A stretch of DNA of 64,000 bases, from IMG/VR virus record IMGVR_UViG_3300031707_000001, positions 62,001 to 126,000 of that record; one strand, given 5' to 3'. The translations under genes and the position numbers were made by a program. Below the pieces are notes generated by a model, which worked only from the letters and a program-made list of their open reading frames with translations, ran no database searches and was not told where the DNA came from. Below are positions 2,545 to 59,893 of the stretch, piece by piece; positions within the stretch are counted from its first letter, which is position 1; the number at the start of each line of letters is the position of its first letter. The stretch comes from a virus.

Positions 2545-4149
2545 ATGATCAGAGGACACAATAAGGATGTGCTCTACGAGCACACGTTAGACCATGCCCT
2601 GGAATTCTTCAGCAAGGCCGGCAGCTTATACGTCATGGGACCACGGGGTCGTAAGCCCTTTGAGCCCTATGGCGGCGAGCATGCTGAAACGTCTGCGCTG
2701 GCATTGTTCCAGGCCGTTTGGGCCGTCAACTACAGGGAAGCACACCTCGATGCTATGCGGCTGTTGTTCTGGCTGCGTGACTGTCGGGGAGGGGCGGGTA
2801 ACCGTTCCGGCTTCCGTTCTTGTCTTCACTGGCTGGCAACCGATGCCGGTCCGGAGGCCAGGGAGTGGTTGAAGCTAAACCTGTCTCGGATTCCCGAGCA
2901 TGGTCGTATGGATGATCTTGAATGCCTGTTTGGTACGCCTCTGGAACCGGAGGCTGCCAAGCTATGGGCAGCAGGCATCAAAGCAGCCGATCACTACGCC
3001 TTGAAATGGGCCAAGCGGAACATGCGTCCGCTGCAGAAGGTCCTGGGCGTGAACGAAGCCGGTCTGAGAAAGCTTTTGTCAAAGCCGGAGAGAAAGACAG
3101 TTGAGCAGCACATGTGCTCCAACTTGTCCATTTGTCCACATTGCAAGAAACTGACCCACTGGTCAAAGCCATCAACAAAGAACACAGGTAACCCGTGGGA
3201 TCGAGCAGGTGAAGGCACGTTGGCTACCGATCTTTATGCGTGTTCCGAATGCGGGACTATGCAACGAGGGCCAATCAAGTGGGAGCCGATCGAGTACAAA
3301 GCTGTGCCGTCCAAGGCCATGAAGGCATATGCAAAAGCATTTGCCAAGCACGACCCGGAAGGATTTACAGGCTTCAAGGATAAGCTGAAGAAGGGTGAGA
3401 CCAAGGTTAATGCTTCAGTCCTGTTTCCACACGACTGCAAGCATGGGGTTGACAACGGTGATCCCGAAATCGCCGATGCCCAGTTCGATGCTTTGCCCGA
3501 CTACATGGGCAAGACCAACCAGCGCATCATGTGCCTGGTGGATACTTCAGGCAGTATGAGCGCTGCCGTCGCAGGCGGTACAGTCATGCGGATCGACGTG
3601 TCGGTTTCGCTTGGCTTGTATTGCAGTGACCGATTGGGCAAAGAGAATCCACTGTACCGGAAGTATATGGAGTTCTCCTCCAATCCATCCTTCAAGGATT
3701 GGAAAGGCAAGAAGTTCTCTGAAGCTTGTCAGGACCAGGATGGGTGGTGTGGCTCGACTAACATCGAAGCCGCATTGGACTTCCTTCTGGCCTTCGCCAA
3801 GAAGCAGAAGATTCAGCCGGAATATATGATCAATACACTGTTGATCCTATCAGATATGCAATTCGATCAGGGTACGGGAGCAGGCAATACCAATCGAACC
3901 GTGGTAGAGAATTGCATGATACGTTGGGCAGACGCAGGTTACGACATACCTAAAATTGTTTACTGGAACCTCGCTGGGTACGCCGGACAGCCGGCAACTT
4001 CCCAGTCTGAGAATATCGGACTCGTGTCTGGTTTCTCGCCTTCTGTTCTGAAGGCGATCTTGGCCGGTGATGATTTTAGTCCTGTCGCTATCATGCGCCG
4101 AGCCCTGGATAAATACCAGGTAACGGCTCCCGCAAATAAGAGCCGATGA
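2545..4149 (+). CDS. DUF2828/TROVE-like protein with C-terminal VWA domain
   Basis: A 534-residue protein. The N-terminal half has WLRDCRGGAGNRSGF near residue 75 and HGRMDDL near residue 117, like the RGGxGxR and GRxDDL signatures of TROVE and DUF2828 proteins. AVPSKAMKAYAKAFAKHD near residue 252 is also DUF2828-like. A zinc ribbon (CPHC...CSEC, residues about 195-235) is inserted between. The C-terminal VWA domain carries a complete MIDAS start, DTSGSM, near residue 332. TROVE proteins (Ro60) are rings that bind Y RNAs and misfolded RNAs. Here a structured RNA array lies directly upstream, so an RNA-binding role is a reasonable inference but not shown. The ribosome site is AAGGAAGGAG. Confidence 0.8.
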   Translation: MIRGHNKDVLYEHTLDHALEFFSKAGSLYVMGPRGRKPFEPYGGEHAETSALALFQAVWAVNYREAHLDAMRLLFWLRDCRGGAGNRSGFRSCLHWLATDAGPEAREWLKLNLSRIPEHGRMDDLECLFGTPLEPEAAKLWAAGIKAADHYALKWAKRNMRPLQKVLGVNEAGLRKLLSKPERKTVEQHMCSNLSICPHCKKLTHWSKPSTKNTGNPWDRAGEGTLATDLYACSECGTMQRGPIKWEPIEYKAVPSKAMKAYAKAFAKHDPEGFTGFKDKLKKGETKVNASVLFPHDCKHGVDNGDPEIADAQFDALPDYMGKTNQRIMCLVDTSGSMSAAVAGGTVMRIDVSVSLGLYCSDRLGKENPLYRKYMEFSSNPSFKDWKGKKFSEACQDQDGWCGSTNIEAALDFLLAFAKKQKIQPEYMINTLLILSDMQFDQGTGAGNTNRTVVENCMIRWADAGYDIPKIVYWNLAGYAGQPATSQSENIGLVSGFSPSVLKAILAGDDFSPVAIMRRALDKYQVTAPANKSR

Positions 4150-4161
4150 TTTGAACCTACC

Positions 4162-4198
4162 GTGTGGCTGGGGGTTTTCCCCAGCCACACTTACTTTG
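4162..4198 (+). terminator. Rho-independent terminator after the VWA gene
   Basis: A 12-bp perfect stem GTGTGGCTGGGG/CCCCAGCCACAC (4162-4173/4179-4190) has a GTTTT loop and is followed by TTACTTTG. Confidence 0.85.
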
Positions 4199-4213: not shown

Positions 4214-4276
4214 GGGTTGCAACCCACCAGCAGCAAGCTGGGTTCCTTTGAGTAGAACATCGAACCGTGCCATAAT
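4214..4276 (+). promoter_or_regulatory. Candidate promoter with upstream palindrome for the RAMP-like gene
   Basis: TTGAGT (4248-4253), a 17-bp spacer and CATAAT (4271-4276) form a plausible sigma70 promoter. A perfect palindrome GGGTTGCAACCC (4214-4225) and a CCAGC/GCTGG hairpin just upstream could be operator sites. Confidence 0.4.
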
Positions 4277-4299: not shown

Positions 4300-5049
4300 G
4301 TGAGTAAGGAAAGCAAGTTGAGTAGTTTGACGAAGTGGGTAAAGGTCCGGTTGACGTTCATAGAAGACACGTTGGCCACGAATCCGGAAGACAAAGAACT
4401 CCACGATCGGTTCATTTCCAGCAAGGCGCCGGACGGTTCCGAGCGCAAGCTGGAGAACGACAGTCTGGAAGTTCGGGAGAAGATGGGCACAACCATCTTC
4501 CTGCGGGATCCCAAGACCGGTCAGTTCTGGATGGGAAACCATATGCTTAAGGGTTTCCTGAAAGCAGCCGGCGAAGTCTTCCGGGTCACCGAAGAAGAAC
4601 CGGAAGTCGCCGAAGAGAAGAAGCCTGAGGAAAATGGGAAGGACAAGAAGCCCAAGAAGGTGTCCAAGCAATGGGGCAACATCACGGGCAAGATCAACCA
4701 ATTGGTGAAAGTATACCCCAAGCAGATGTTCATCAATAGTCCGGGCGACAAACCCACCACGGCGCCGGATAGCATCTTGCAGAGAAGTCTGCGTGCTCAA
4801 ACCCAACAGGGACCCAGAGTAGCCCTGGCAAAATCCGAAGCCGTCCAAGCGGGATCGTATCTGGACGCCACAATCATGCTCATCGGCGACAAGCCGGTGA
4901 CCATGGCCATGATCAAGGAATGCCTTGACTATGGGCTGGTCCACGGTCTTGGACAGTGGAGAAATGCCGGCTACGGCGCCTTCACATACGAGATCCTGGA
5001 GGAAGGTGAAGGTCTTCCCGAGGAAGCCAGAGCTTTCTTGAAAGCGTAA
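4300..5049 (+). CDS. RAMP (Cas7)-like phage protein
   Basis: A 249-residue protein from GTG 4300, with GAGGTG five bases upstream. MGNHMLKGFLKAAGE near residue 78 resembles the S-x-x-KGxLR segment of Cas7/Csm3-type RAMP proteins. ALAKSEAVQAGSYLDATIML near residue 175 resembles their central strand. GLGQWRNAGYGAF near residue 218 resembles the Gly-rich loop that ends RAMP folds. A charged, Lys/Glu-rich insert (residues about 98-125) separates the parts. RAMP proteins bind RNA as filaments. No CRISPR array or other cas gene is present. Similar GIGxWRxxxG endings occur in phage proteins of unknown role, so the RAMP reading is inference. Confidence 0.55.
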   Translation: MSKESKLSSLTKWVKVRLTFIEDTLATNPEDKELHDRFISSKAPDGSERKLENDSLEVREKMGTTIFLRDPKTGQFWMGNHMLKGFLKAAGEVFRVTEEEPEVAEEKKPEENGKDKKPKKVSKQWGNITGKINQLVKVYPKQMFINSPGDKPTTAPDSILQRSLRAQTQQGPRVALAKSEAVQAGSYLDATIMLIGDKPVTMAMIKECLDYGLVHGLGQWRNAGYGAFTYEILEEGEGLPEEARAFLKA

Positions 5050-5058
5050 CGCTACAAT

Positions 5059-5098
5059 GGGAATAGGGCCAGTCGCCTAGCGTTTGAGCCCTATTCCC
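5059..5098 (+). terminator. Strong hairpin after the RAMP-like gene
   Basis: An 11-bp perfect stem GGGAATAGGGC/GCCCTATTCCC (5059-5069/5088-5098) has an 18-nt loop. A pyrimidine-rich run follows, but there is no real T-tract. It could terminate weakly or act as a processing or stability element at the 5' side of the GT-rich region. Confidence 0.55.
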
Positions 5099-5133
5099 TA
5101 CTCTCCTTGTGCAGTAAAGCCAATTAAGCGAGA

Positions 5134-5940
5134 GTTGTGTACGGTGAGGTTTGGTGATGGTGACGTTGGGTGGCGTTTGGTGCGGTGATGTCCGGTGTCG
5201 GTAAAGTGGGGTAACGTCACGTGCTGTATGAGTAGTGTTCGGTCTTGTCCTGCCACGTCTAGTAACAGTGTTGCGCTGCGTGGTTCGGTCTAGTTACAGT
5301 GGTGTGGGGCGCTCTGTAGTCCAGTACTGTCATGGTTATGTGAAATACTGTCTAGTTAAGGTGGAGTAAAGTCCTGTATCGTCAGGTTCTGGTGATGTGG
5401 AGTTTAGTCCCATATCGTCAGGGTGAGGTATTGCCGAGTGATGTGCGGTGACGTAGTGTCCGGTTTCGTGATGCGTAGGTAATGTCTAGCCCGGCATTGT
5501 CGAGCAATAGTGTTGTGTGGTCCGGTACTGCGTGGTCCGGTATAGGTAATGTATAGCACAGTGATGTGATGCATAGTTTTGGTGGTGTTTGCTAAAGCTA
5601 TGTGCAGTAATGGTGGAGTGCGGTCCAGCCATGTTTCGTGTGGGTCAAGTCAAGCCTTGCCAAGTCTCGTTTCGGTTCCTCATATGTGTAGTGATGCGGC
5701 GTTACGGTGGCGTCATGCCATGCGAGGTGATGTGATGGTAGCGTCAGGCAGCGTAAAGCTGAGTGTTGGTGTCGTAAAGTTCAGCCAAGTCCGTGTAGGG
5801 TTCTGTGCGGTCCTGTTGAGGTGTGGCAAAGCGCTGTTAGGCCATGGTTTGGTTGGGTCTAGTCGAGCGGTGTCACGGTCATGTGAAGCCAGGTCGACTA
5901 CAGTGATGGTGTAGTTGAGTCAAGTGTTGCGCCGTGGTGC
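5134..5940 (+). repeat. Non-coding array of degenerate GTNNN pentamers, about 800 bp
   Basis: Read by eye, nearly the whole stretch divides into 5-base units beginning GT (sometimes GC), for example GTTTG GTGCG GTGAT GTCCG. A 6-base unit appears every few units, usually with an extra G before the next GT. The mean spacing is therefore a little over 5, and the array holds on the order of 150 units. The three other bases vary freely. The + strand is rich in G and T and poor in C. A 5-base period is incompatible with coding, and the open frames inside are chance. The array lies between a hairpin (5059-5098) and a terminator (5944-5975), so a GU-rich RNA is one reading and a protein-binding DNA site is another. 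No known repeat class fits. Confidence 0.85.
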
Positions 5941-5943
5941 TTC

Positions 5944-5975
5944 GGGCTCCCTGCTGTCGGGGAGCCCTTTCTTTT
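5944..5975 (+). terminator. Rho-independent terminator closing the GT-pentamer region
   Basis: The stem GGGCTCC/GGAGCCC (5944-5950/5961-5967) is followed by TTTCTTTT. This suggests that the pentamer array is transcribed on the + strand. Confidence 0.85.
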
Positions 5976-6016
5976 CAAACATTCAACAATTGGTTTTTAA
6001 CTTAGAAAGGAACAGC

Positions 6017-6145
6017 ATGAAGAAAGGATATACGTTGGTTGAAGTAATGATTGCTGTTGTTTTCCTGGCTATAGCGATTGCTGTAGTAATGGGGGCAATA
6101 CAATCAACCGGGTGTGGCCGGTTTATAGGAGATATGCTTCGATGA
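6017..6145 (+). CDS. Prepilin-like micro-protein (42 residues)
   Basis: ATG 6017 follows AGAAAGG at proper distance. The first residues, MKKGYTLVEVMIAVVFLAIA, form a type IV prepilin signature: a short basic leader, Gly as the last leader residue, aromatic +1 and Glu at +5 after cleavage (G|YTLVE), then a hydrophobic helix. Only 14 or so residues follow the helix, so the pilin head domain is missing. Type IV pilins are processed by a host prepilin peptidase in the inner membrane. A phage peptide of this form could enter or block the host pilus or secretion machinery. That role is inferred. The next gene overlaps by ATGA. Confidence 0.65.
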   Translation: MKKGYTLVEVMIAVVFLAIAIAVVMGAIQSTGCGRFIGDMLR

Positions 6146-13861: not shown

Positions 13862-14343
13862 AGCGAAAGACGCACAAGACAGACTGGGCCGTACTTCGAC
13901 GGGTAGCAGAGCGAAGCCCGAAGAGCTTTGCTCTGCGCATACGCAGGCGCAACGTTGGGCTATTGCGAGCCCTGGAGAAGCACAATTGGGTCTTCTCTTC
14001 CCACGTGGGATGTCCGCACTGTGTCGACTGCGAAACTTGCCTTTGGATAGAGGCAATGAAAGCAGTAAAGAACGTCAACGATGGATGTTGCGGAGTGCGT
14101 TTTGGTGGACTACCCCTACGTAGAATACATATGATTGCATATGATTCTACTTCAGAAAAGGTGTACTCACCAAACACCCTGCCCGGAGATCTGTTTCTAC
14201 GATACTTCAACGACGCAGTACGCTTCGTGAAAGCCCACATAGCGTGGACCAAAAAGCCCTACTGGGGCAGGAAGCTCAATAAACCAAAAAGCCCTACTGG
14301 GGCAGGAAGCTCAATAAACCATGAAGAAACTCAACACACGTGA
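13858..14343 (+). CDS. YWGRK-family Cys-rich protein, paralogue 4, with altered C-terminus
   Basis: 161 residues from ATG 13858, overlapping the previous stop (ATGA). RRVAERSPKSFALRIRRRN, GCPHCVDCETCLW, RFGGLPL and HIAWTKKPYWGRK match the family. A 35-bp tandem duplication at 14248-14317 shifts the frame of the second copy, adding a tail that reads KPKSPTGAGSSIN. The extra 20 residues are therefore likely new. The N-termini of paralogues 3 and 4 are very alike, so they duplicated from each other. Confidence 0.7.
   Translation: MKRKTHKTDWAVLRRVAERSPKSFALRIRRRNVGLLRALEKHNWVFSSHVGCPHCVDCETCLWIEAMKAVKNVNDGCCGVRFGGLPLRRIHMIAYDSTSEKVYSPNTLPGDLFLRYFNDAVRFVKAHIAWTKKPYWGRKLNKPKSPTGAGSSINHEETQHT
14248..14317 (+). 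repeat. 35-bp perfect tandem duplication
   Basis: Bases 14248-14282 are repeated exactly at 14283-14317. The unit length is not a multiple of three, so the C-terminus of paralogue 4 is frameshifted relative to its family. Confidence 0.92.
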
Positions 14344-33001: not shown

Positions 33002-36000
33002 ATGCCTCAGCTTCCGGAAAATCTCCGTGAGTTCGACGATACGGATAAGACCAGGGAACTCATTTACTCCAACGTAATGGATTCGCTGCAGAAGCGTTTT
33101 CCTATTGAGGACAACGAGTATCGTTTGGAACTATCCGGCCTGAAGTATTCTGGTCCTCAGCACTTTTCCCTTGACCAACAGAAACAAGCCCTGATGAAGG
33201 ATCGGCACTTGCACACTCCGATTACAGGGAAGTGGCGCTTGATGGACAAGGCCAACAATGCTGTACTTGGCGAGAAGGAAGACGTTGTAATGAACGTCCC
33301 GTACTACACGCCACGGGGAACATTCATCTTCAATGGCAACGAGTACAGTACAGTCAATCAGTCCCGTTTGAAGCCTGGTGCCTATACTCGTAAGCGTAAG
33401 ACGGGCGAAGTGGAAACGCAATTCAACGTACGGCCTGGGACCGGCCGGCCGTTCCATTTGCGTCTGGAACCAGAAACGGGTATCTTCCGCATCAGCGTTG
33501 AACAATCGAACATTCCTCTCTATACCCTGTTGAATACACTGGGCGTATCTGATAAGGAACTCATGCAGGCATGGGGTCCAGAGATGCTTGAAGCCAATAT
33601 CAAGAAGCAAGATAAGCGGGCCCTTCCAAAGATGTACGAACGTTTTTCGGGGTATAAGTACGATCCCAATGCCCGGGAAGACCAGATGAAGCAGTACATC
33701 AACGAGGCTTTGGCAAAGTTTGAATTGGACCCGGACGTCATGGCTCGTACGCTTGGCATTCGTGACACGAAGAACGTTACGCCACAGGCTCTTATTAGAG
33801 CCACGCAGAAGATGTTGAATGTATCCAAAGGCACAGAGGAGCCAGACGATCGTGATGCTCCAATGTACAGCAACATCTACAGCGTTGAAGATTTACTTCA
33901 GGAGCGCATAGACAAGGATGCCGGAAGACTGGCCAAGACATTACTGTATAAAGCACGTCGTACAAAGAACTTAGACCATGTACGTCGTGGGGCACTAGAT
34001 CCATACATCATGGGACAGAACGGGTTCCTTCTGGCCTCTCGATTGACAATGCCGTTGGAAGAAACCAATCCGCTGCATACGCTGGAGCAATCCGCCCGCA
34101 TTACCAAGTTGGGACAGGGCGGTATAAGCTCTGCCGAATCCATTACTGATGCAGCCCGGGACGTGAACAATGGGCAGTTTGGATTCGTTGACCCGATCAC
34201 TGGACCAGAGCACATCAACGTGGGTATTGACGTGCGTGCCGCTTACAAGAGTTTCAAGGGCAAAGACAAACAGATCTATGGGGAGTTCAGACATCCTGGA
34301 AGCGGAAAGATGTTCTACCTAAGACCTGAAGACGTAGCAGACAAAGCCGTGGCGTTTCCTGGCGAAATGAAGAAGCCAGGAGATACGGCTGTCGTTATGC
34401 AAAACGGGAAAATCAAACGAGTTGCGAAGCCAGAGGTTGACTTTGAGGTTCCATCCTTTGGTCACATGATGTCTTCGCATACGAACATGAATCCTATGCC
34501 AACAGCCGTCCTTCCTGGTCGGCAATTCTATGGCGCAAAATTCTGGAGTCAGTATCTGCCTATGGTAGACGGGGAAACCCCGTTGGTGGATTCTTTAACG
34601 CCAGAAGGCAAACAGACATTCGGTGAATACTACGGACGTAAGGTAGGAGCGCTGAATTCGAAGGTTGCGGGAACTGTAGCGAAAATCACAGATAACAGCA
34701 TTACCGTTGTTGGTGATGATGGTCAAAAACACGTTACTGAATTGGTGAAGGACTTCCCGTTTAACCGACTGACCGGGATCAGTTATTTCCCGGCCGTGAA
34801 GCCTGGAGACAGGGTGAATGTAGGTGATATGGTAGCTCACTCCAACTTCACGGACTCCAAGACGGGAGGGATTAACATGGGCCGCAACCTGAAGACCCTG
34901 ATGATGCCGGCCCGAGGTATGTCTTACGAAGATGCATATGTTATCAGCGAATCGGCCTCAAAGAAAATGACAACGGAGCGACTATATGGATTCGACCAGG
35001 AAAGCAGACAGGGCGTCGATATTGGAAAGAACAAGTTCATTTCAACCTTTGCCCAGAAATTCACCAAGGACCAGGTGTCCAACATTGACGACGAAGGCGT
35101 GGTCAAGCCCGGCACCGTTGTCAGCAAGGGCGATCCTCTCATCCTCGCTGTTGGACCTAAACTCCTTACCTCCGCCGACGCACAACTGGGCAAGCTGCAT
35201 AAAGTGCTGCGAAACGCCTTTACCGACAAATCCGTGATATGGGAATCCAACTATCCTGGTACAGTTACAGATGTGGCTATGACCGGGCATGGTGCCCGTG
35301 TGAACGTAAAGAGCATTCCGCCCGTTCAAGTCGGCGACAAGTTGTCCACACGGTTTGGACTGAAGGGTGTGGTTGGCCGTATTCTACCGGACGATCAGAT
35401 GCCCCGGGATCTGGTAACCAATGACCCCTATGATATGCTGCTCAATCCTATGGGCGTGCTGTCCCGTGTGGCGCCAAATCAGATCATTGAAATGAATCTG
35501 GCCAAGATTGCCAAGAAGACCGGCCAGCCTATTCGTTTACCCCAGGAGCCTCCTCCAGAAGGTTGGGCTGCTTGGGCCAAGAAGCAAATGGATGCAGCTG
35601 GCATCAAGGAAGACAATGACATCTTCGATCCAGTTACGGGAAAGACCATTAAGGGCGTATCAGATGGGTTTGTGTATACAGCGGCATTCCACCACTTGGC
35701 GGAAAAGAAGCTGTCTGCCCGTGGAGAGTCGGGTGCCTATACAATCGACGAACAGCCAGCCAAGGGTGGATTCGAAGGCGCCAAGCGATTCAGCCAGATG
35801 GACGTGAATGCTACGCTGGCACACGGTGCGCCCGAAGTCATTCGGGACGTACAGTTGATTCGTGGTACCAAGAATGAAGAGTTCTGGAAGGCCCTGAAGT
35901 TGGGCCGGCCACTACCCGAACCAACAGTTCCTTTTATCTATGACAAGTTCCTCAATACGCTTCGAGCAGGTGGCGTCAACGTGCAGGAAAAGGGGGACAT

Positions 36001-37393
36001 AGTATCGCTCATGCCTATGACCGATGCTGACGTAGATAGCTTGTCTAAAGGCAAACTGGAGAGCAAGCGTCCATTCGATATGGTAACGCCTGACTTTGAA
36101 CCTATACCTGGTGGGCTGTTCGACATGGGCAAGACAGGTGGCATGAACGGCAATCGCTGGACCCATATCGATCTTGTTGAACCTTTGCCCAACCCTGTGA
36201 TGGAGGAGCCTATTCGCCGAATACTTGGCTTGAAGGTACAGGAACTCAGGGATGTAGTTTCCGGCAAAGCATCCATCAATGGCTTGGCCGGTGGACGTGG
36301 ACTGCAGGAAGCCCTAAAGAATATAGACATTGATGCTGCCATTGAAGAGCACAAGGACAAGGTCAAGTCGCTGCGTGGATCCAACCGTGACAATTCCGTA
36401 AAGGTATTGGGATATTTGTCAGCAGCGAAGAAGCAGGGTGTGCATCCTTCAGCCTGGATGATCACCAAGGTACCCGTACTTCCACCTAAGTTTCGACCCG
36501 TATCACGTATGGGCGACGTTGCATTGATTACCGATCTAAATGAGCTATATGCCTCAGTCATGGAAGTAAACAATAACATCCGTGACATGCGCAAGGTATT
36601 GCCGGAGAGTGAGACAGCAGAACAGAAAGAGTTGCTATATGATGCAGTCTCGGCCGCATTTGGTTTGGGCGATCCCATTACTACAGAAGGTAAGTCCAAG
36701 CGTTTGAAGGGCGCCATTCGTCAGATTATTGGGGCCAGCCCAAAGTCTGGAATGTTCCAATCCCGGGTTATCTCTAAGACTGTAAGCGATGTAGGGCGTG
36801 GCGTAGTAACGCCCGATCCTAATCTGGATATGGACAGCATTGGCATTCCAGAGGATTCAGCGTGGAGTCTCTATAAAGACTTTGTAATGCGCCGACTGGT
36901 ACGTCGGGGTTATCCGTCCGTACGATCGTTGGAACTGATTGAGAAGAAAGATCCAGTTGCCAAGGAAATGTTGGAAGCTGAAATGGCTAGCCGGCCTGTA
37001 TTGGTGGACCGGGCCCCAACGTGGCACAAGTTCAATCTGTTGGCTATGTATCCACACATTTCGGACGGCAATACTATCCGTGTATCGCCACTGGTGACCA
37101 AGGGATTCAACATGGACTTCGACGGCGACCAGGCCAACTTCCACGTTCCCGTGAGCGATAAAGCTGTTGAACAAGCCAAGAACAAAATGCTACCATCACG
37201 CAATTTGTTCAGCTTGACCGATTTGAAATCGGTACGTCACTCTCCATCCATGGAGATGACATTGGGTCTATATTGGCTGACCCGGGAAAAGACAGGTAAG
37301 GCACCGTTGCGGTTTGCTTCGCTTACAGATGCTAAGAAAGCATACCACGAAGGCAAGATTGGGTTGAACGATCCGATCACAATAGGAGCATAA
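33002..37393 (+). CDS. RNA polymerase: beta fused to the N-terminal half of beta-prime
   Basis: 1463 residues after AGGGAGG. Beta features: PYYTPRGTFIFNGNEYSTVN near residue 99 (the GTFxINGxE region), GMSYEDAYVISES near 640, and GDKLSTRFGLKGVVG near 778 with both active-centre lysines. LNPMGVLSRVAPNQIIE follows. Near residue 1024 the beta-prime part begins (PGGLFDMGKTGG, then HIDLVEPLPNPVM), without the N-terminal zinc domain. KVPVLPPKFRPV and the catalytic NMDFDGDQA near residue 1370 are intact. The protein ends in the region corresponding to just before the TTVGRALL segment of bacterial beta-prime. No alpha, omega or sigma gene is in the window. It is likely active together with the product at 39746. 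Confidence 0.93.
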   Translation: MPQLPENLREFDDTDKTRELIYSNVMDSLQKRFPIEDNEYRLELSGLKYSGPQHFSLDQQKQALMKDRHLHTPITGKWRLMDKANNAVLGEKEDVVMNVPYYTPRGTFIFNGNEYSTVNQSRLKPGAYTRKRKTGEVETQFNVRPGTGRPFHLRLEPETGIFRISVEQSNIPLYTLLNTLGVSDKELMQAWGPEMLEANIKKQDKRALPKMYERFSGYKYDPNAREDQMKQYINEALAKFELDPDVMARTLGIRDTKNVTPQALIRATQKMLNVSKGTEEPDDRDAPMYSNIYSVEDLLQERIDKDAGRLAKTLLYKARRTKNLDHVRRGALDPYIMGQNGFLLASRLTMPLEETNPLHTLEQSARITKLGQGGISSAESITDAARDVNNGQFGFVDPITGPEHINVGIDVRAAYKSFKGKDKQIYGEFRHPGSGKMFYLRPEDVADKAVAFPGEMKKPGDTAVVMQNGKIKRVAKPEVDFEVPSFGHMMSSHTNMNPMPTAVLPGRQFYGAKFWSQYLPMVDGETPLVDSLTPEGKQTFGEYYGRKVGALNSKVAGTVAKITDNSITVVGDDGQKHVTELVKDFPFNRLTGISYFPAVKPGDRVNVGDMVAHSNFTDSKTGGINMGRNLKTLMMPARGMSYEDAYVISESASKKMTTERLYGFDQESRQGVDIGKNKFISTFAQKFTKDQVSNIDDEGVVKPGTVVSKGDPLILAVGPKLLTSADAQLGKLHKVLRNAFTDKSVIWESNYPGTVTDVAMTGHGARVNVKSIPPVQVGDKLSTRFGLKGVVGRILPDDQMPRDLVTNDPYDMLLNPMGVLSRVAPNQIIEMNLAKIAKKTGQPIRLPQEPPPEGWAAWAKKQMDAAGIKEDNDIFDPVTGKTIKGVSDGFVYTAAFHHLAEKKLSARGESGAYTIDEQPAKGGFEGAKRFSQMDVNATLAHGAPEVIRDVQLIRGTKNEEFWKALKLGRPLPEPTVPFIYDKFLNTLRAGGVNVQEKGDIVSLMPMTDADVDSLSKGKLESKRPFDMVTPDFEPIPGGLFDMGKTGGMNGNRWTHIDLVEPLPNPVMEEPIRRILGLKVQELRDVVSGKASINGLAGGRGLQEALKNIDIDAAIEEHKDKVKSLRGSNRDNSVKVLGYLSAAKKQGVHPSAWMITKVPVLPPKFRPVSRMGDVALITDLNELYASVMEVNNNIRDMRKVLPESETAEQKELLYDAVSAAFGLGDPITTEGKSKRLKGAIRQIIGASPKSGMFQSRVISKTVSDVGRGVVTPDPNLDMDSIGIPEDSAWSLYKDFVMRRLVRRGYPSVRSLELIEKKDPVAKEMLEAEMASRPVLVDRAPTWHKFNLLAMYPHISDGNTIRVSPLVTKGFNMDFDGDQANFHVPVSDKAVEQAKNKMLPSRNLFSLTDLKSVRHSPSMEMTLGLYWLTREKTGKAPLRFASLTDAKKAYHEGKIGLNDPITIGA

Positions 37394-55954: not shown

Positions 55955-58900
55955 ATGCCATACGTTCTACCACAAGTTCAGGTATTCCAGGAATTCCGTG
56001 TTCTTCCCTCTGTCGTGGTGAGGAACCTTAACGCCTTTGTGTTTGGCCCGCACTATCAGCTGTTCCGCTATGAAGAAGCAGCTGAGAAAGCATTGATCGG
56101 CCTGGGGGCATACGACAAGAGCAACGACACGGATTATTCTTATCCAAATTTGCCAAGTGGATCAACCGTTGATCAAAGCTACGTAAAGCTCTACATGGAA
56201 AACGTGTGGGCGCAGTACGCAGCCATTTCGGCAAGCAGCGCCAATCCCCTTAACGTAGTCAGCACAGCTGAGCTGAACAAGCTGCGTGCTGCACCCGTAA
56301 TCGGGGCATGCGTAGTTGGCACCAACGGCGGATCACCCATTGCGGGTGTAAATCCCGTTTCTGGTGGGTATCTTCGGGCTGGCGTCACAGCCGCAGAAGA
56401 CTACTATATGTGGCCTTACGGAGGTTGGGATGGCGGAGCCAGTGCATGGTCGGCTTCCAAGTTGGTTATGGCTGTGGACAGTGCCGCTCAGCAAGGCCGC
56501 ATGAAGTTCCTGACCAACACGGGCGCCAATGGCACATTCGTTGTTACAGGCAATGCTACGATGCCTCATTGGGATATTGGCCCGGCCGGCATTCGTCTTC
56601 AAATGGTAGCAGGTGTCGACAACGACATCCACGCTCCGGTTAAAGTCACTTTCGGTGATGGCGCCGGCAACGAATTGCTTGTTGAATTGGACGAGAGCAA
56701 GATGGCCACGCTAATTAACTGGGCCATCGATCTGCAGAAGCCAGTAAAGATCATAATCAACCTGGCAGCAGGAACAACGTCTATAGTTTGGGAAGCAGTT
56801 GCAGGCAGCAAAACGCTGACCGTTAATCTGAAGCCGGCAGACGCAACAACGTTGAACGGTTTGAAATCGGCGTTGGAAGGTATCAGCACTGTTGCTACCT
56901 ACTTCAACATCACGTTGACTGGTTCAGGCACGGGTGTTGTTAGTACAGCTGTAGATCAGGTTGGTACGGACATTTCGGCCGCAACGACTACGTTACTGCG
57001 TGATTCGTTCCGTATTCACGTCACGCCGAATCCTTACGTGTTCAAGACGGCAAACGGAGTCAATCACTCCGTACAGTTCTTCAACCGTGATGTGCAGGTC
57101 GGCGATCGGGTACGCTATACAGTAACGGACGGCAGTTCGGTGGTTCATACCGGTACAACCAAGGTTGTAGGGTTTGAAGCCGATCCGGCACTGGCCTATC
57201 TGGGCGATCCTACTCCAAAAGATACGAATGCAGCATCACAGGCTGCTGACGATCTTTCTGCAGTGGTTGCTTCGCTCGTTCCAGCAGCAGGCAATGCCCG
57301 CACAATGGATAACACAGGTGCAGGCGTTATTGCATTGGATGGTACAATCCAGCAATACCCGGTCGATTTGAAGAACGGTGTATTGAGCGAGAGCGTTACG
57401 ATCACGATTACCAAGGACGGTCTGAAGGACGTTGCTGAAGCCACGGTTGAAAGCGCCAGCGGAAACTATGTTCGTACAGGCGTAAAGATCGAAACTGGAG
57501 TCGGTGGCGATGATGGCGAAATCTACGTCGGACAGAATATGGTTGTGCGTTTCGTCCAGGGCGGAACCGATCCGGATGCAATATTCCAGGTTGGTGACGT
57601 CTATACGCTTGATCCCAAAGTCAAGGGCGGATACACGGTAATTGATAACCGCTTTGTGGTCAAAGGTGGCGCATATGCGGGTCCGATCGATACTACCTAT
57701 GTAGTTGAAGTCGTTCGTGGTGGAGTATTCAACCGGACAGTCAACGTGATTAAGGGTCTGCAGGACCCCTATCCCGCTGTAGCGGTGCTCAGTGCCAGCG
57801 TAAACTGGGATGATTGGTTGGGTGGTGATGTGGACGACGAATACGTATTGGTCTGCACATCAGCCGGTGACATTGCCAGTGCACAGTTCCACCTTAGCTC
57901 GCAGTTGGGCGAGTTGGAATCTGGCATCGTATTCGGTGTAGCAGCGACGGACATTGCCTTGGGTGATAAAGGCTTGATGGCACAGTTCGATGTTGATGAT
58001 ACCTTTTCAGTAGGCGACTACTGGATCATCAAGGTAAACGGCTGCCGTCCCCAGGTTAAGATATTCGATACGGCCGGCGTGGACACTGGTGGTTATTTCA
58101 CAGTGGAAGCCGGTGGTGTATTGGATCTGGGCGGATACGGCGGAACCATAACGTTCGAGGCAAACCTGAACGAATTGGGTGGTTTTGCTCCGGATGGTGG
58201 TCTGGTTGTCGGAGACGTATTCTACGTCGAAGCGGTTGCAGCAACTGACGGAGCAATCCGGACGTTGGTGCTTGCAGACGATCTGCCTTCAGAAGCAATC
58301 CCGGGTATCGACTCGGCAACAGATATGACCAATACAGCGCCCGATAAGTTTGGTTCGTGGTTGTATCTCGTACAGGCAACCACGGCGATCGAGTCTGAAC
58401 GTATTCAGTCTCCGCCAGATTACAACTGGTTGGCTGATGCTGGTGGCATAACCGTCTATAAGAACCTGCAAGTTCAGGATTCTTCTTGGACGAATTTGCT
58501 TGGCGAGATGATGTGGATGAATGTCTACAGTGCTGATATGTACGTTGAGTACAGAGCATTGCTGTCAACCTACACAGATACGCTGCATTTCATTGCAGAC
58601 ATCGCCAACGTGCCAACAGAGTTGGGCACCGTATCTCCGGATAATCCGTTGTCACAGGGTGTGTATAACGCTCTAAGCAACAGCGGAAACCGTGGCGTAT
58701 GGTACATGGGTGTTCCAAGCGTTGACCTGGCTGGTTTCAGCACGGTGCTGGATCGGGCCTCGTTGACTGATGAGGTTTATAACTTCGCTCCGTTAACACG
58801 AGATATGCAGATTCTCGATGCTGTAGAAGCGCACGTCAACGACATGAGTTCGGAATCGAACAAGCGTTGGCGTATTGCCTTCGTTGGTACAGATATGCCA

Positions 58901-59893
58901 ACGATTCATGCGGTCTACAACAAAGCGGACAATCCGGTCAACAAGGAATTCTATGCTTTGGTCAGCGATGATCCAAGCGTTCCTGGTACCCAATACACAG
59001 TGGTAACGTTCGTTCCGGCTTCTGGTGAAAGTTCGCCTTACACGAACTGCTTGGCAGACGTGAAGGCTGGTGACAAGGTCCGGATCAACTTTGCTACCGA
59101 TGCATGGGGTACAGCCAGCTATGAGGAATACACGGTGGCTTCAGTTTCGTCCAATACGCAACTGAAGTTGACAACGGGCCTCGCAGCCCCGGTGATCGTG
59201 GCAACAAAGATTGAAGTATGGCATCCATACAGCGTGGCTGAAATGGCTACAGCTGTGGCAGCCATCTCGTCTGGGTTTGCCAACCGCCGCATGTATCACG
59301 TCTTCCCGTCTCGCTTGGGCGCCTTTGGTGTCCAGGAGACAGCGGAATTCGGAGCAGCAGCAATTGCAGGGCTATGCAGTTCAGTGGCTCCGCAGCAGGG
59401 TCTAACGAATATCGAAGTAAACGGATTCGATGATCTGCCGATGGTGTACAGCATGTTCAATCGTGCTCAGCTTAATGAAATGGCTGGAGCAGGTACGTTG
59501 ATTATCATGCAGGACATCGCTGGTGGTACAATCTACGTCCGTCATCAGGTGTCGACGAAGGCCGCAGATGAAGACCTGAATACGACAGAACTGAGCATAA
59601 CAAAGAATCTGGACAGTATCAGTTACTTCTTTGACACTCGGTTGAAGCCGTATATCGGCCGGTTTAACATCACTCAGGCGTTGATCGATGTTATCGAAAC
59701 AGAGATTAACGATGGTTTGATGTACCTCGGCTCGCTCACGAGCGTGGGCTTGCTTGGGCCGCAGATCGTTCTGAACGGCACGTCGATCAGAAGTATTCAA
59801 CAGCATCCGGTGTTGCTGGATCACCTGATCGCATATGTGGACGTGGTACTGCCTTATCCGTTGAACGTGATGGAACTGCATTTGGTTGTATAA
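55955..59893 (+). CDS. Contractile tail sheath protein, unusually long
   Basis: 1312 residues after AAAGGAG. The C-terminal part (residues about 930-1312) is sheath-like, with WRIAFVGTDMP, FANRRMYHVFPSRLG, FNRAQLNEMAGAGTLII and a final NVMELHLVV strand that would join subunits. The N-terminus (VLPQVQVFQEFRVLPSVVVR) also fits. Between them lie roughly 600-700 residues of repeated beta-domain character. Most sheaths I know of are about 400-750 residues, so extra surface domains are likely. It makes the virus a myovirus. Confidence 0.8.
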   Translation: MPYVLPQVQVFQEFRVLPSVVVRNLNAFVFGPHYQLFRYEEAAEKALIGLGAYDKSNDTDYSYPNLPSGSTVDQSYVKLYMENVWAQYAAISASSANPLNVVSTAELNKLRAAPVIGACVVGTNGGSPIAGVNPVSGGYLRAGVTAAEDYYMWPYGGWDGGASAWSASKLVMAVDSAAQQGRMKFLTNTGANGTFVVTGNATMPHWDIGPAGIRLQMVAGVDNDIHAPVKVTFGDGAGNELLVELDESKMATLINWAIDLQKPVKIIINLAAGTTSIVWEAVAGSKTLTVNLKPADATTLNGLKSALEGISTVATYFNITLTGSGTGVVSTAVDQVGTDISAATTTLLRDSFRIHVTPNPYVFKTANGVNHSVQFFNRDVQVGDRVRYTVTDGSSVVHTGTTKVVGFEADPALAYLGDPTPKDTNAASQAADDLSAVVASLVPAAGNARTMDNTGAGVIALDGTIQQYPVDLKNGVLSESVTITITKDGLKDVAEATVESASGNYVRTGVKIETGVGGDDGEIYVGQNMVVRFVQGGTDPDAIFQVGDVYTLDPKVKGGYTVIDNRFVVKGGAYAGPIDTTYVVEVVRGGVFNRTVNVIKGLQDPYPAVAVLSASVNWDDWLGGDVDDEYVLVCTSAGDIASAQFHLSSQLGELESGIVFGVAATDIALGDKGLMAQFDVDDTFSVGDYWIIKVNGCRPQVKIFDTAGVDTGGYFTVEAGGVLDLGGYGGTITFEANLNELGGFAPDGGLVVGDVFYVEAVAATDGAIRTLVLADDLPSEAIPGIDSATDMTNTAPDKFGSWLYLVQATTAIESERIQSPPDYNWLADAGGITVYKNLQVQDSSWTNLLGEMMWMNVYSADMYVEYRALLSTYTDTLHFIADIANVPTELGTVSPDNPLSQGVYNALSNSGNRGVWYMGVPSVDLAGFSTVLDRASLTDEVYNFAPLTRDMQILDAVEAHVNDMSSESNKRWRIAFVGTDMPTIHAVYNKADNPVNKEFYALVSDDPSVPGTQYTVVTFVPASGESSPYTNCLADVKAGDKVRINFATDAWGTASYEEYTVASVSSNTQLKLTTGLAAPVIVATKIEVWHPYSVAEMATAVAAISSGFANRRMYHVFPSRLGAFGVQETAEFGAAAIAGLCSSVAPQQGLTNIEVNGFDDLPMVYSMFNRAQLNEMAGAGTLIIMQDIAGGTIYVRHQVSTKAADEDLNTTELSITKNLDSISYFFDTRLKPYIGRFNITQALIDVIETEINDGLMYLGSLTSVGLLGPQIVLNGTSIRSIQQHPVLLDHLIAYVDVVLPYPLNVMELHLVV

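Follow-up and report, generated by a model that had tools for sequence, protein, structure and literature searches.

What maintains a base register in phage DNA that encodes no protein, and what might read it? We addressed this question for positions 5134 to 5940 of a 64,000-nt stretch of viral DNA (hereafter the window; IMG/VR record IMGVR_UViG_3300031707_000001), in which a G recurs at nearly every fifth base of one strand. The record is that of a large tailed phage, with a tail sheath match within 55955-59893 of the window. The window also encodes a 1463-aa protein matching phage RNA polymerase beta subunit families (33002-37393) and carries a perfect 35-base direct repeat in 2.1 copies at 14248-14321 (ACCAAAAAGCCCTACTGGGGCAGGAAGCTCAATAA). 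The features around the array are as follows.

2545-4149, upstream of the Cas7-like gene: Ro60-like gene (DUF2828/DUF7788; phrog_850 RNA-binding protein), with relatives in 657 phage records
4162-4190, + strand: intrinsic terminator of the Ro60-like gene, a 13-pair stem followed by a T-rich tail
4248-4276, + strand: promoter-like sequence TTGAGT-17-CATAAT, 9/12, with TG before the second hexamer; a consensus match only
4300-5049, + strand: gene for the predicted Cas7-like protein, 249 aa, RAMP fold, with a glycine-rich loop GLGQWRNAGYGAF
5059-5098, + strand: RNA hairpin between the Cas7-like gene and the array (z = -3.6; centroid -30.6 kcal/mol for an 89-nt stretch)
5134-5940, + strand: the array, non-coding, about 156 G-H-n-n-n units with a 6-nt unit at about every sixth step
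5944-5977, + strand: intrinsic terminator right after the array, a 10-pair GC-rich stem (5944-5967) followed by a T-run, TTTCTTTT

The array is real and non-coding

Analysis of the window confirmed that the array is real and does not encode protein. G stands at the start of each 5-nt step and is followed by T, C or A and almost never by another G, with a mean unit spacing of 5.16 nt, in agreement with the first-pass annotation, which had described GT or GC pentamers with occasional 6-base steps and a mean period just over 5. The GT-GT autocorrelation at lag 5 was 74, compared with 26 in dinucleotide shuffles (z = 11), and the Fourier spectrum peaked at 5.16 nt with a GT power of 42.3, above every shuffle (mean 5.5, maximum 13.2), so that the comparison of GT distances and spectra with shuffles, which had been proposed as a check, came out in favour of the pattern. 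The top autocorrelation lags were 31, 5, 36 and 26, those at 31, 36 and 26 being as strong as lag 5. Segmentation yielded 156 units (130 of 5 nt, 25 of 6 nt and one of 7 nt), with G first in 150 and the second position occupied by T in 127 and C in 29. The GT/GC description held in this window but not as a general rule, which is G-H-n-n-n, because other phages use GC or GA.

Stop codons are present in all three + frames (19, 9 and 23), indicating that the array is non-coding, as had been claimed. Because the units share just G and the next base, a tandem-repeat finder is nearly blind to the array and detected almost nothing, and no fixed repeat or CRISPR repeat-spacer structure was found in it, which bears out the earlier view that it is neither a simple microsatellite nor a CRISPR array. 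Rfam covariance models gave no match up to E=1 over 4900-6100, and comparison of the array with the rest of the record returned only the self-match.

The hairpin and terminator that had been described as its boundaries were both recovered at the positions listed. The terminator at 4162-4190 closes the Ro60-like gene, indicating that the gene and array unit downstream is separate, and the Ro60-like gene, considered as a candidate member of that unit, was ruled out by this intervening terminator. Promoter-like sites in this stretch were not enriched over shuffles. The unit of gene, hairpin, array and terminator appears self-contained.

The adjacent gene encodes a predicted Cas7-like protein

Searches of the 249-aa product against Pfam, PHROG, PADLOC and NCBIfam gave no assignment above cut-off, including the curated Cas7/RAMP models of Pfam, NCBIfam and PADLOC, and TIGR02582 was not found in G000. 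A profile of its family matched type VII Cas7 (E=1e-6) and Csm4 (E=3e-5), and Foldseek on an AlphaFold model (pLDDT 83.7) returned type VII Cas7 (E=1e-9) and type III-A Csm3 as the best matches. On these profile and structural matches, the product of 4300-5049 is classed as a predicted stand-alone Cas7-like protein with a Cas7/RAMP fold. In an approximate comparison with Csm3, in which an Asp cleaves target RNA, no Asp was invariant among 26-29 family members.

The recurrent neighbours of the gene across loci include a repressor, an integrase, and replication and recombination genes; a CRISPR array, Cas5, Cas10, Cas11 and a nuclease were absent among them. In temperate phages, the Cas7-like gene has the immunity region on one side and the replication/recombination genes on the other, a position suggesting early expression and an accessory anti-host role.

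Arrays and Cas7-like genes recur together across phages

A DNA-only pattern made from the array alone and scanned over viral contigs identified 60 loci. A Cas7-like relative was encoded in the fetched piece at 32 of these, usually beside the array, and elsewhere on the contig at 10 of the remaining 28. Scanning viral contigs with the single Cas7-like protein found no relative; the protein scan was built from a 7-row alignment subset, the diverse 29-row alignment having no scannable block. This protein-only scan identified 126 loci, comprising 80 in viral contigs and 46 in prokaryote genomes (mostly Clostridia; also Saccharibacteria, Omnitrophota, Verrucomicrobiota and others).

We measured linkage as the power at periods of 5.10-5.22 nt beside the gene, using thresholds of 4.5 and 10. 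Power exceeded 4.5 at 116 of the 126 protein-found loci and 10 at 102, compared with 0.2% and 0.04%, respectively, of 14,843 control windows more than 3 kb from the gene, the strongest of which are farther-off arrays in L125 and L155; phages gathered through the same gene are not independent samples. Fourteen loci were weak in all, five of them cut by a contig end (L098, L120, L128, L181 and L191), and about 8 of the 126 have neither a clear array nor an obvious contig-edge excuse. The signature, which the first-pass annotation had proposed to look for in other phages, therefore recurs with the gene, and the array in the window belongs to a widespread and apparently undescribed phage system.

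The arrays begin a few bases after the stop codon or finish just before the gene. This placement, together with the terminator that ends the array in the window, could suit a cis-acting untranslated region, in which coating by the Cas7-like protein would protect the transcript or control termination or translation. Large genomes carry additional arrays at least 10 kb from the gene, however, and arrays of 500-3000 nt exceed by far every autoregulatory site known to us. We regard a cis-acting role as doubtful.

Partial second Cas7-like genes, perhaps decayed duplicates, lie beside the full gene at two loci (L051, 2289-2591; L065, 8378-8683). Two identical locus copies about 48 kb apart on one contig (L146 and L147; JAGCAN010000001.1) perhaps reflect a duplicated phage assembly. 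Hydrogenobaculum phage 1 carries a distant relative of this family, family 1 (L211, 3128-3898), with G-rich intergenic DNA of weak periodicity behind it.

The arrays have a fixed strand, punctuation and rapid turnover

Learned without a prior motif, the unit invariably opened with G; C, T or A came next, and three free bases, rich in A, completed it. The invariant G was on the gene-sense strand in every case (160:0 arrays). All 16 opposite-strand detections overlap same-strand arrays, mostly of the GC flavour, as follows from GC reading alike on both strands. At L011, distant arrays lie on the other strand, and the genes flanking them are also on that strand.

The 6-nt units are distinct punctuation. 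Their consensus is G, Y (95%), R, A (63%), N, G (93%), followed by the next G (GYAANG+G), and the G at position 6 occurred in 93% of them compared with 22% in a synthetic array subjected to the same segmentation. The distance from one punctuation unit to the next was most often 26, 31 or 36 nt. The 6-nt steps were anti-bunched over about six units (variance 0.32 versus 0.88 for shuffled steps), and beyond 6 units the variance grew linearly with distance, with no long-range phase lock, which argues against a rigid DNA helix clock; a global helical clock was ruled out on this ground.

Phages with genes 80-90% identical mostly had no alignable array sequence in common, and those with genes 92-94% identical had common array blocks that were rearranged and differed by the gain or loss of units, in one case of exactly 31 nt. 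These sequence comparisons indicate that the free bases change rapidly and the G register is retained, suggesting that the free bases are unlike selected guides and that the register is the feature kept. The second motif base partly tracks genome composition (r about 0.47 with GC3) and was therefore not counted as evidence of co-evolution. Folding of the array RNAs did not differ from that of shuffles in either direction (mean z -0.07), so the candidate feature of reduced RNA structure was not found.

Exchange and loss of blocks, including the 31-nt one, might also be seen if the periodicity had arisen neutrally from tandem duplication or base composition. Against such an origin, the units have only G and H in common and no sequence, the excess over shuffles is large (z = 11), the punctuation is specific, and both period and linkage recur in unrelated phages, the linkage statistics being strongly contrary. 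A neutral origin can for practical purposes be set aside.

A second Cas7-like family has arrays of its own

Arrays with a different neighbour protein led to phrog_4652, a divergent Cas7-like family related to family 1 by profile comparison (probability 87.8%, E = 3e-6) and with a predicted Csm3-like fold (pLDDT 71.5; Foldseek E = 4e-5). This family is found in phages available in culture, among them the Felix O1 group (Felixounavirus), mycobacteriophages, Gordonia phages, Pseudomonas LESphi2 and others. Intergenic GGYNN arrays lie beside phrog_4652 in Saal, Ecliptus and Cy-LDV1 (period 4.90-4.92, power 13-24); their odd step is a 4-nt GGCA unit, which recurs at intervals of about 9-12 pentamers. 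Across phrog_4652 phages the array periods are 4.9-5.0. Felixounavirus arrays are organized as modules of 12-20 pentamers, each with a leading hairpin that has one of two stem sequences and the same shape. The Felixounavirus Alf5 carries the cassette, with gp091 as its Cas7-like protein, and JH2 and UAB_Phi87 lack it. Gene 43 of Gordonia phage Pipp (QFG09710.1, MAGMARLGLTRPG...; L206, 4662-4931) is an ORF called over a pentamer array, and low-complexity 'hypothetical proteins' of this kind may serve as array markers in other phages. A small partner gene, phrog_5926 or phrog_15946, follows the family-2 Cas7-like gene (L205, 6591-7031; L207, 4627-5082); these partner genes were detected in family-1 loci only where family 2 was also present.

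These phages also reveal gain and loss. The gene and the array are both absent from three mycobacteriophage relatives. Four Felixounaviruses without the gene anywhere retain one or two array modules. These remnants have the flanking sequences that border the first and the last module in the complete cassette, a layout that recombination between modules would be expected to leave. The remnants are the main misfit to a strict one-to-one dependence of array and gene, and may have other partners or be a deletion scar.

Persistence of modules without the gene would be expected if the array RNA were a sponge for a host or competing-phage factor, which the Cas7-like protein would process or deliver without being its main binder; further arrays away from the gene in large genomes and the lack of conservation of the free bases are in line with this as well. 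Yet linkage to a Cas7-like gene is near-universal in two divergent families, the mycobacteriophage relatives that lack the gene also lack the array, and the remnant modules fit deletion by recombination between modules. We consider a sponge unlikely.

The second family also bears on whether the array acts as DNA. If the array were a double-stranded origin, partition site or packaging site to which the Cas7-like protein or some other protein binds, a spacing near half a helical turn (5.17 bp; 2 x 5.16 = 10.3 bp) would be accounted for. Replication and recombination genes are found close to many loci, and a gene beside its own site array is a typical replication or partition layout. DNA iterons or a centromere would nevertheless be expected in free orientation, whereas the G strand goes with the gene at 160:0 and follows local transcription at L011. 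The absence of a long-range phase lock, the 4.9-5.0 period of the homologous phrog_4652 systems, the hairpin-capped modules and the predicted RNA-binding fold of the neighbour protein are likewise contrary, making a DNA site very unlikely. The link to half a DNA helical turn drawn in the first-pass annotation is disfavoured for the same reasons, namely G always on the transcribed strand, no long-range phase and the homologous periods. In sum, the strand fixity of G, the terminator and hairpin, and the hairpin-capped modules favour function at the RNA level, as judged from sequence.

A model for assembly on the array RNA

We think it likely that subunits of the Cas7-like protein line up along the array RNA, about one per pentamer, to form a ribonucleoprotein, whose RNA binding, stoichiometry, form and role we infer. 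The array would be transcribed with, or next to, the Cas7-like gene, and its RNA would be the assembly platform, the invariant G being read in a base-specific pocket of the protein and the other bases remaining largely free. In the window, roughly 155 subunits would be arranged over 807 nt. The GYAANG units that precede the next G would split the array into segments of 26, 31 or 36 nt, a job that in phrog_4652 relatives would fall to GGCA every 9-12 pentamers or to hairpins capping modules of 12-20 pentamers. The resulting ribonucleoprotein would be of Cas7 type but have no CRISPR, guide or nuclease; it would form early in infection and, in temperate phages, often be encoded in the early region. 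Its role is most likely host takeover or counter-defence, perhaps as a decoy or titrating assembly, which is a guess from gene position. Support for assembly on array RNA comes from the two-way linkage, the strand, the predicted Cas7 fold, the register, the punctuation and the second family with its own arrays.

Comparison with known systems

In known Cas7 proteins, contacts with RNA recur at 6-nt intervals and are for the most part not sequence-specific; these proteins form helical assemblies of identical subunits on RNA. The phage system differs in having a dedicated RNA with a G about every 5 nt, and its 5.16-nt spacing, which is a spacing of sequence and not a footprint, counts against assembly on the array RNA when set beside this 6-nt, sequence-independent footprint. 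Type III and VII Cas7 proteins (Csm3, type VII Cas7) and type IV-B Csf2 have the same fold as the predicted phage models, and Csf2 with Cas11 assembles on non-CRISPR RNA (type IV-B; PMC7937560). In contrast to CRISPR effectors, the phage system has no other Cas genes among its recurrent neighbours, and its gene is carried by phages.

TRAP binds (G/U)AG RNA repeats at 5-nt spacing, 11 in a row. Short RNA motifs at 5-nt spacing are common to both systems, and the family-2 segments of 9-12 pentamers are similar in size. The phage motif is G-H-n-n-n or GGYNN, however, the arrays are much longer, and the partner has a predicted Cas7 fold rather than a TRAP fold; TRAP-type (G/U)AG triplets with 2-nt spacers were not found in the array, whose unit is G-H-A/r-n-n with positions largely free. 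The idea of an RNA scaffold or RNA coating, raised in the first-pass annotation, thus gained an adjacent gene of predicted Cas7 fold and a recurrent pairing, but the spacing, made up of 5-nt units interrupted by punctuation units, matches neither TRAP, with its plain 5 nt, nor Cas7, with its 6 nt.

Racr RNAs, solitary CRISPR repeat units that act as RNA anti-CRISPRs, mimic one CRISPR repeat and use host Cas proteins. Here too a phage RNA would be handled by a Cas7-type protein, but one that the phage itself supplies. Host type III CRISPR was considered as a target and rejected, since none of the 34 host genomes searched had a Csm3-type Cas7 match over the family cut-off. ToxI repeats of the type III toxin-antitoxin system ToxIN are folded pseudoknots of fixed sequence. 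They resemble the phage system in placing an RNA repeat array beside a protein gene, whereas the phage array has neither a fixed repeat nor excess structure (fold z about 0). To our knowledge, the dedicated periodic RNA of the Cas7-like system has no counterpart.

The first-pass annotation had placed the array in no described class, and this held: the system is unnamed in the open-access literature and family libraries searched. We found no description of arrays with Cas7 in a literature search of a largely open-access library.

Implications for phage biology

The pairing of a Cas7-like gene with an array of one G per five bases points to an assembly of RNA and protein in which phages put CRISPR parts to use in the absence of CRISPR itself. 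We see an even chance that it is a Cas7 backbone domesticated by phages for guide-free, sequence-specific coating of RNA at one G per pentamer, in which a genome-encoded template sets length and segmentation, and which acts against host defence or physiology in phages of several bacterial phyla, temperate and lytic ones as well as very large ones. If true, hundreds of phage records would contain a Cas7-type ribonucleoprotein system that lies outside CRISPR, with bearing on the evolution of the Cas7 backbone, on the use of long non-coding RNA by phages and on the purpose of unannotated intergenic arrays. Carriers of the system that are amenable to laboratory work include Felix O1-group phages of E. 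coli as well as mycobacteriophages, and the function of the cassette could be tested directly in natural Felixounavirus pairs of which one member has it and the other does not.
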